From the NCBI RefSeq assembly GCF_037031225.1, contig NZ_JAYEZN010000001.1:1-64000 (forward strand): a DNA stretch of 64,000 nt, read 5' to 3'. Each line of letters begins with the position of its first letter. Within the stretch, counting starts at the first letter, position 1. The translations under genes and the position numbers were made by a program. This document shows positions 36,402 through 36,855 of the stretch, one piece after another. The notes under the pieces were generated by a model. The model had not been told where the DNA came from. It was given only the letters and a program-made list of their open reading frames with translations, and did not search any database. This DNA is from Halorientalis sp. LT38. Lineage in GTDB: Archaea; Halobacteriota; Halobacteria; Halobacteriales; Haloarculaceae.

Positions 36402-36486
36402 GCGTGGGTAGCCAAGCCAGGCCAACGGCGCAGCGTTGAGGGCGCTGTCCCGTAGGGGTCCGCCGGTTCAAATCCGGTCCCACGCA
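36402..36486 (+). tRNA. tRNA-Leu (anticodon GAG)
   Basis: 85-base type II tRNA. Acceptor stem GCGTGGG (36402-36408) with CCCACGC (36479-36485) and discriminator A (36486, tRNA-Leu identity); anticodon stem CAGCG (36431-36435) with CGCTG (36443-36447) and loop TTGAGGG, anticodon GAG at 36438-36440 reading CUC/CUU; long variable arm built on CCC...GGG (about 36449-36459); T arm GCCGG-TTCAAAT-CCGGT (36462-36478). No intron. CCA is not encoded. Confidence 0.95.
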
Positions 36487-36584
36487 CTCATCGCGCGGGC
36501 TACGCCCGCGAACGGAGGCGGCGAAGCCGCCGACAGAGTGCAGGTGCACTCCCCTTGGGACTGCACCCACGCATAATTCCTTTC
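36466..36584. repeat. 119-bp direct repeat, copy 1 (tRNA-Leu 3' end and flank)
   Basis: Covers the last 21 bases of tRNA-Leu and 98 bases of its 3' flank. It is base-for-base identical to 36737-36855. It contains three hairpins: 36494-36500 with 36504-36510, 36517-36522 with 36526-36531, and 36538-36543 with 36561-36566. Similarity continues weakly for about 25 bases beyond the end. Confidence 0.93.
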
Positions 36585-36620
36585 AGTGCAAGTCCGTGAG
36601 CAGTTGCTACACGATATTCA

Positions 36621-36757
36621 CAGTGCTCGACCGGGCCGTCAGCGCAGCGTTGCGGGCGCTGTCCCGTAGGGGTCCGCCGGTGAGCGGTCGGCGTGCCGAC
36701 CGCGAACGTCGTCACGAGCGGAGCGAAGTGACGGAAGTTCAAATCCGGTCCCACGCA
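36621..36757 (+). pseudogene. Broken second copy of tRNA-Leu
   Basis: The anticodon arm and variable arm (36642-36681) match tRNA-Leu 36428-36467 with one change, giving GCG instead of GAG at the anticodon (36652-36654). The 5' acceptor strand and most of the D arm are lost. A 55-base insert of two hairpins (36682-36736), flanked by GT on both sides, splits the T arm, after which the tRNA 3' end resumes (36737-36757). It cannot fold as a tRNA. Confidence 0.8.
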
Positions 36758-36855
36758 CTCATCGCGCGGGCTACGCCCGCGAACGGAGGCGGCGAAGCCG
36801 CCGACAGAGTGCAGGTGCACTCCCCTTGGGACTGCACCCACGCATAATTCCTTTC
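36737..36855. repeat. 119-bp direct repeat, copy 2
   Basis: Identical to 36466-36584, offset by 271 bases, attached here to the broken tRNA-Leu copy. Small open frames that read through either copy on the minus strand are not considered genes. Confidence 0.93.

Follow-up and report, generated by a model that had tools for sequence, protein, structure and literature searches.

In the usual view, tRNA genes are constitutive and their trailers disposable. Dicistronic tRNA–small RNA precursors, such as the tRNA–C/D box RNAs of Nanoarchaeum equitans and the tRNA–small nucleolar RNA (snoRNA) precursors of plants, carry a structured element directly behind the tRNA that RNase Z could separate. Scars at the attachment sites of archaeal tyrosine recombinases appear as partial tRNA 3′ copies past an intact tRNA, and archaeal integrases mostly target tRNA 3′ ends (PMC8371274). 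In mouse n-Tr20 tRNA-Arg, the C50U change produces a non-native precursor fold that competes with the cloverleaf and lowers RNase P cleavage (PMC8915964). Haloarchaeal REP/PATE-like elements are short paired hairpins without genes. Here we analyze a structured element, the tail, that lies directly 3′ of tRNA-Leu(GAG) in a 64,000-nucleotide stretch of Halorientalis sp. LT38 (contig NZ_JAYEZN010000001.1, positions 1–64,000; hereafter the window) and is conserved across the haloarchaeal class. The common leucine codon CUC is read by this tRNA.

Like the dicistronic precursors, the tail is a structured element directly 3′ of a tRNA on the same strand (73 of 74 loci), but it repeats the acceptor strand of that tRNA and pairs with its last bases; no C/D or H/ACA boxes were noticed in it by eye, no program having been run for them. 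Like attachment-site scars, the locus holds a direct repeat of the tRNA 3′ end, and relatives do use this tRNA as a target. It differs in that no integrase or element lies between the copies or nearby, and in that the copies are conserved, structured and old rather than variable and unconstrained. The window contains 0 matches to PF00589 (tyrosine integrase) and the genome's 7 matches all lie elsewhere, in agreement with the first-pass annotation, which had seen no integrase; the 271-bp spacing of the repeats is too short for any gene between them. The n-Tr20 fold is caused by mutation, whereas in haloarchaea the second acceptor strand belongs to a trailer that is conserved. Unlike REP/PATE hairpins, the tail has a fixed position behind one tRNA and one or two copies per genome. 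A literature search, with most subscription journals outside its reach, found no account of any conserved element downstream of tRNA-Leu(GAG) in haloarchaea. What we regard as new is that the tail copies the acceptor strand and pairs with the end of the tRNA, from which we infer a swap of strands.

ARAGORN recognises a single tRNA in the window, tRNA-Leu(GAG), and calls it at 36402–36487. We place the gene at 36402–36486 (plus strand, as are all features of the locus), which ends in CCCACGCA (36479–36486; strand u of the proposed switch) and whose 5′ end, GCGTGGG, would be the contested partner. Tail 1 (36487–36601; covariance-model match 36533–36591) begins immediately after it. In helix P1 (36484–36541), GCACTC (36484–36489), that is, the tRNA's last GCA plus CTC, pairs with GAGTGC (36536–36541) and encloses the variable H1 hairpins (36494–36531; hairpins 36494–36510 and 36517–36531). 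H2 (36539–36573; TGC-A-GGTGCA-C-TCCC-CTT-GGGA-C-TGCACC-CAC-GCA) has one 3-nt bulge (CAC) and contains the second acceptor strand, d, again CCCACGCA. A conserved 3′ extension, nAATTCC..CnGA..GC (36574–36601), completes the unit. We give roughly even odds (about 0.5) to the reading that the tail acts in cis as a trailer, exchanging acceptor strands with pre-tRNA-Leu(GAG) and thereby gating the maturation of this precursor.

The tail is a class-wide structured element 3′ of tRNA-Leu(GAG), not a local oddity. In a first search the tRNA was present in 58 of 58 relatives, many of them similar past the tRNA as well, and reading of the 3′ flanks gave a common core, xyz-TGC-R-GGTG...CACC-CAC-GCA-nAATYC. 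A covariance model, R1, built from 20 aligned cores (match threshold E ≤ 0.001), matched 325 of 391 haloarchaeal genomes, including 318 of 377 good ones, and was represented in 74 of 86 genera; most genomes gave one match and hardly any gave more than two. In a phylum sample 66 of 392 genomes matched, all in the same order except for one weak partial match (G465, E 3.6e-4), which we take as chance; the tail is essentially absent outside the class. R1 was also run on 90 of 156 loci (ten family labels, 59 genera), some of them picked for lacking the tail. Among the 74 that matched, 73 have tRNA-Leu(GAG) ahead of the tail on the same strand, the remaining one (L049) being the end of a 1.3-kb contig, and 8–229 nt (median 33) separate the tRNA from the pivot TGC. 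Rfam (release 15) gave no family at gathering score for the tail in the window and, on four loci at E up to 1, RF00005 (tRNA) alone, on the tRNA itself; the tail is a ready-made RNA family absent from Rfam. The first-pass annotation had proposed, as one of two alternatives, that the hairpin tail rather than the second tRNA is maintained, and that no function need be assumed if the tail diverged freely in relatives. Class-wide conservation with compensatory changes bears out the former, and free divergence is not what the relatives display.

Both helices of the tail covary. H2 has 11 two-sided cells in the 20 aligned cores (0 of 500 shuffles); across 98 matches (A3) it has 92.5% standard pairs and 71 two-sided cells, with 0 of 500 shuffles as high, and it tolerates G–U pairs, as in RNA. 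P1 joins the tRNA's last GCA and next three bases to three bases plus TGC. Its variable positions are paired in 55, 50 and 45 of 57 rows (one per genus), against shuffle means of 44.4, 41.6 and 31.4, and at each position 0 of 10,000 shuffles reached the observed value. The two main P1 types (CT/AG and TC/GA) both occur within family f1 and within f14. In eight loci just 8–12 nt separate the tRNA end from the pivot; the shortest P1 is a hairpin of five or six pairs, with a GCAA loop in three loci (GCATC-gcaa-GATGC in L091; GCACT-gcaa-AGTGC in L019 and L023), and in these shortest forms a stable P1 requires the tRNA's own GCA. The bulged CAC of H2 is unpaired when the tRNA is closed normally (state A, below), but not one of 96 rows lacks CACGC, and the strand opposite the bulge is variable (A, G, AC, ATAC, TC, GA).

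Because TGC cannot pair with the tRNA end in P1 and with the second GCA in H2 together, the two pairings define exclusive states. The tail would be an old, class-wide RNA element within the tRNA-Leu(GAG) transcription unit that acts in cis on the precursor, its pivot strand, xyz-TGC-R-GGTG, being placed between the two copies of the acceptor 3′ strand. In state A, the tRNA would be closed by its own 3′ strand while the pivot and the second copy form H2. In state B, the pivot would take the tRNA's 3′-terminal GCA and next bases (P1), and the second copy, which can pair with the tRNA 5′ strand as well, would do so, with the bulged CAC of H2 now pairing with the tRNA 5′ end. The product would be an enlarged cloverleaf whose acceptor stem is no longer normal and which should escape cleavage by RNase P and RNase Z; in this way the amount of precursor matured would be set by the trailer, presumably in response to some trigger that shifts the balance. 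If true, control of tRNA supply would be built into the precursor by the class-conserved trailer of a single tRNA. For 49 genera the tRNA was folded computationally together with the trailer found behind it (ten loci with long spacers or unreadable tRNA ends were omitted), and the predictions are consistent with a specific strand exchange. In 48 of 49 the P1 state is predicted to win over the normal acceptor stem in stability, by a mean of 3.35 kcal/mol, and the second CCCACGC captures the tRNA 5′ strand in 41 of 49; at least five acceptor pairs are kept in 2 of 49 natural trailers versus 53% with shuffled tails.

In this genome and some relatives the tail is doubled. Unit 2 opens with what is left of the anticodon and variable arm of the tRNA (36631–36670). 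The anticodon region reappears here, 214 bases further on, reading GCG instead of GAG and without the tRNA 5′ half, just as first described. It continues with module M2 (36671–36757), a tRNA-Leu T arm with hairpins (36684–36703 and 36709–36734) inserted between T stem and T loop and with a terminal CCCACGCA (36750–36757). By length the insert is 57 bases (GGTCCG to CCCACGCA spans 87 versus 30), equal to the 55 plus GT given originally, and the hairpins reported in the insert and the repeated flank are real. Tail 2 follows (36758–36872; covariance-model match 36804–36862). Each tail starts at a CCCACGCA, which belongs to the tRNA 3′ end in tail 1 and to its copy in tail 2, and has a further one inside (36566–36573 and 36837–36844). 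The 119-bp repeat (36466–36584 and 36737–36855) is exact, with zero mismatches, and the likeness of the flanks runs on to 136 nt at 97%; the 3′ extension differs between the two copies.

Tested for a cloverleaf, as the first-pass annotation had advised for both copies, only the first is recognised as a tRNA. The second is nevertheless not simply the decayed tRNA that had been supposed: the split, two-hairpin T arm is itself a conserved structure and stands behind the same tRNA in several families. In M2 aligned from 17 genomes, 36 two-sided cells were counted, a value reached by 0 of 500 shuffles. Conservation and covariation of the split T arm rule out a plain pseudogene. A model of M2 (R2, E up to 0.001) matched 115 of 391 genomes, most of them weakly; the best 30 matches were read, and many weaker ones coincide in part with other tRNA-Leu genes and were left out of the M2 count. 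Among these best 30, 29 follow tRNA-Leu(GAG) and the other follows tRNA-Leu(TAG), and the tail core is present on both sides in 25, on one side in 3 and on neither in 2. Because 25 of these 30 are flanked on both sides, the tRNA–tail–M2–tail layout is either old or repeatedly formed. A recent strain-level duplication is likewise ruled out by the two-unit layout, which occurs in 22 of the 74 matching loci (chosen loci, not a random sample) and in families f1, f4, f6, f7 and f17. By a gapped measure, the two tails of a genome are more alike than either is to the same tail of other two-unit genomes in 14 of 21 cases, and in 14 of 15 where the tail lengths differ by no more than 6 nt; by an ungapped measure, the identity of tail 1 to tail 2 exceeds the best foreign tail 1/tail 1 value in 19 of 21. 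This pattern fits concerted evolution of the two tails, for which gene conversion would be the simplest explanation, although the ungapped comparison is less clear; the two tails of this genome were probably homogenised in the same way. Both alternatives first offered for the locus, gene conversion and a maintained tail, therefore have support.

Several observations weigh against an acceptor-strand exchange. R1 finds no match in 66 of 391 genomes, and the tail is therefore dispensable for some lineages. Its transcription is something we infer, and no T-run terminator stands behind it: TTTT within 120 nt past the last core occurs in 12 of 58 genera versus 10% of random windows. The covariation shuffles ignore relatedness. 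The rows with CACGC were found by a model that expects it and are biased towards it; TGC and GCA are invariant, so the exchange itself is without covariation, and the tRNA 5′ strand is invariant too. The control for the fold predictions is unclean, as the acceptor stem is kept in 13 of 29 tail-less genomes with natural flanks and in one of four other Leu tRNAs of this genome. The predictions also ignore tRNA tertiary structure, modification, proteins and co-transcriptional folding, all of which favor state A. As to concerted evolution, the within-genome likeness loses by the gapped measure in L010, L062, L076, L090, L141 and L147, where one copy has insertions, and outright in L138; by the ungapped measure, the best tail 2/tail 2 match exceeds the within-genome value in several genomes (L062, L076, L141, L147). 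Predicted folds without the acceptor stem are not unusual, and we place more weight on the covariation of P1 and the invariance of the bulged CAC.

The same linkage to one tRNA could be read differently, with the tail as a small RNA in its own right that is transcribed from the tRNA promoter, is freed by RNase Z at the tRNA 3′ end and acts in trans, its likeness to the tRNA end being incidental or serving to recruit tRNA-binding proteins. A single-copy, structured element always directly behind one tRNA would suit such an RNA, and a tRNA–small RNA precursor with an RNase Z-made 5′ end is described for Nanoarchaeum equitans (PMC3491384). Haloferax volcanii expresses several structured 70–100-nt RNAs of unknown family, none of which could be matched to the locus from the available part of PMC6104027; the Haloferax RNAs s194, IG1.7 and Hts4 were considered as possible counterparts of the tail. 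But P1 takes in the three terminal bases of the mature tRNA and would lose them on release, and neither a separate promoter nor a terminator has emerged. A trans-acting RNA could also move, yet none of the loci read has the tail apart from tRNA-Leu(GAG), and we regard this alternative as doubtful.

A further possibility is that mobile elements attaching at the tRNA-Leu 3′ end leave behind cassettes that terminate in copies of this 3′ end. The tail would be the oldest of these cassettes and would have been retained for its role as a DNA hairpin or a site of recombination. In two viral contigs (L152, L153) the 3′ half of tRNA-Leu(GAG) is followed by a gene resembling the integrase-like open reading frames that lie behind this tRNA in L020 and L032 (recognised by eye, not by family search), and in genome G056 tRNA-Leu and a 64-base 3′ part of it stand 20 kb apart, which suggests that tRNA-Leu(GAG) is an attachment site for integrating elements. 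The integration-site idea of the first-pass annotation fits the locus because relatives and viral contigs use this tRNA; it leaves the conserved tail unexplained. Behind tRNA-Leu(GAG) in tail-less genomes, T-arm copies (M3 cassettes) occur in 19 of 30 loci. The M3 motif was present in 32 of 58 relatives, with zero control matches, and 21 of 30 M3 loci fetched have another tRNA within 400 nt upstream, of 13 kinds, the M3 copy mostly repeating the 3′ end of its own upstream tRNA. One locus (L014) has two identical 97-bp M3 cassettes ahead of the tail. On the other side, the structure of the tail is conserved and covaries class-wide, with G–U pairs, and the M2 region had no match among 72,556 plasmid and 50,697 phage records. 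When viral contigs were searched for the tail with two patterns, one hit two related contigs (L155, L156) and the other none; both contigs have an H2-like hairpin ending in CACCCACGCA, without a tRNA and in different surroundings, and these matches are probably chance. We regard a landing strip of this kind as unlikely.

M3 and the tail are built alike, with an end copy on either side of two hairpins that are separated by a complementary strand, and the tail may therefore be a fixed relative of M3; it points to a broader class of tRNA-end-copying cassettes in haloarchaea. Returning to the acceptor-strand exchange, we can sketch a wider version, which we hold only tentatively and well below even odds. 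In it, the precursor of the CUC-reading tRNA would carry its own competitor and toggle class-wide between a processable and an enlarged, unprocessable cloverleaf; enlarged forms ending in the second CCCACGCA might mature as a tRNA-like RNA, and M3 cassettes would be the mobile relatives from which the switch was domesticated.

It is improbable that H2 and the pyrimidine-rich stretch are a mere transcript-end or stability hairpin of the tRNA gene. The conserved GC-rich hairpin followed by nAATYC(C)TT would agree with this, but the invariant unpaired CAC, the acceptor-strand copy, P1 and the restriction to one tRNA would remain unexplained, and the TTTT enrichment given above is so weak that we rejected a terminator. 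A functionless tandem duplication homogenised by gene conversion would account for the likeness of tails within a genome (14 of 21, gapped), but it is hardly credible given the class-wide survey, in which most genomes have a single tail that is still conserved and covarying across families.

Other features were seen at these loci. M3 cassettes are about 100 nt long (L219–L248, e.g. L220, L222 and L234; also L014, L120, L122, L192 and L214) and run in the order hairpin, inverted T arm, inner hairpin (often GGAAGTCGCAGC...GACCGTCTTCC) and copy of the tRNA's T arm and 3′ end, at times in tandem. In L205 an integrase-like gene lies beside a tRNA-Leu(GAG) 3′ half. Two-hairpin inserts in or near the H2 loop occur in single species (L010, about 1917–2040; L037; L016; L103), as if small elements land in this loop. 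A gene beginning MAKYSTG with a CELCG motif, which we take to resemble archaeal MBF1, lies upstream of the tRNA and divergent from it in the window (35711–36236, minus strand); in several other families it is downstream and co-directed with the tRNA (L089, L091–L095, L115–L117). On the 3′ side of the locus, L025, L028, L030, L037 and L211 have a GGCACC...GGTGCC palindrome, and runs of CCCCACCC come after it; at 37800–37900 the window has only a C-rich run with a GGTGG/CCACC palindrome.
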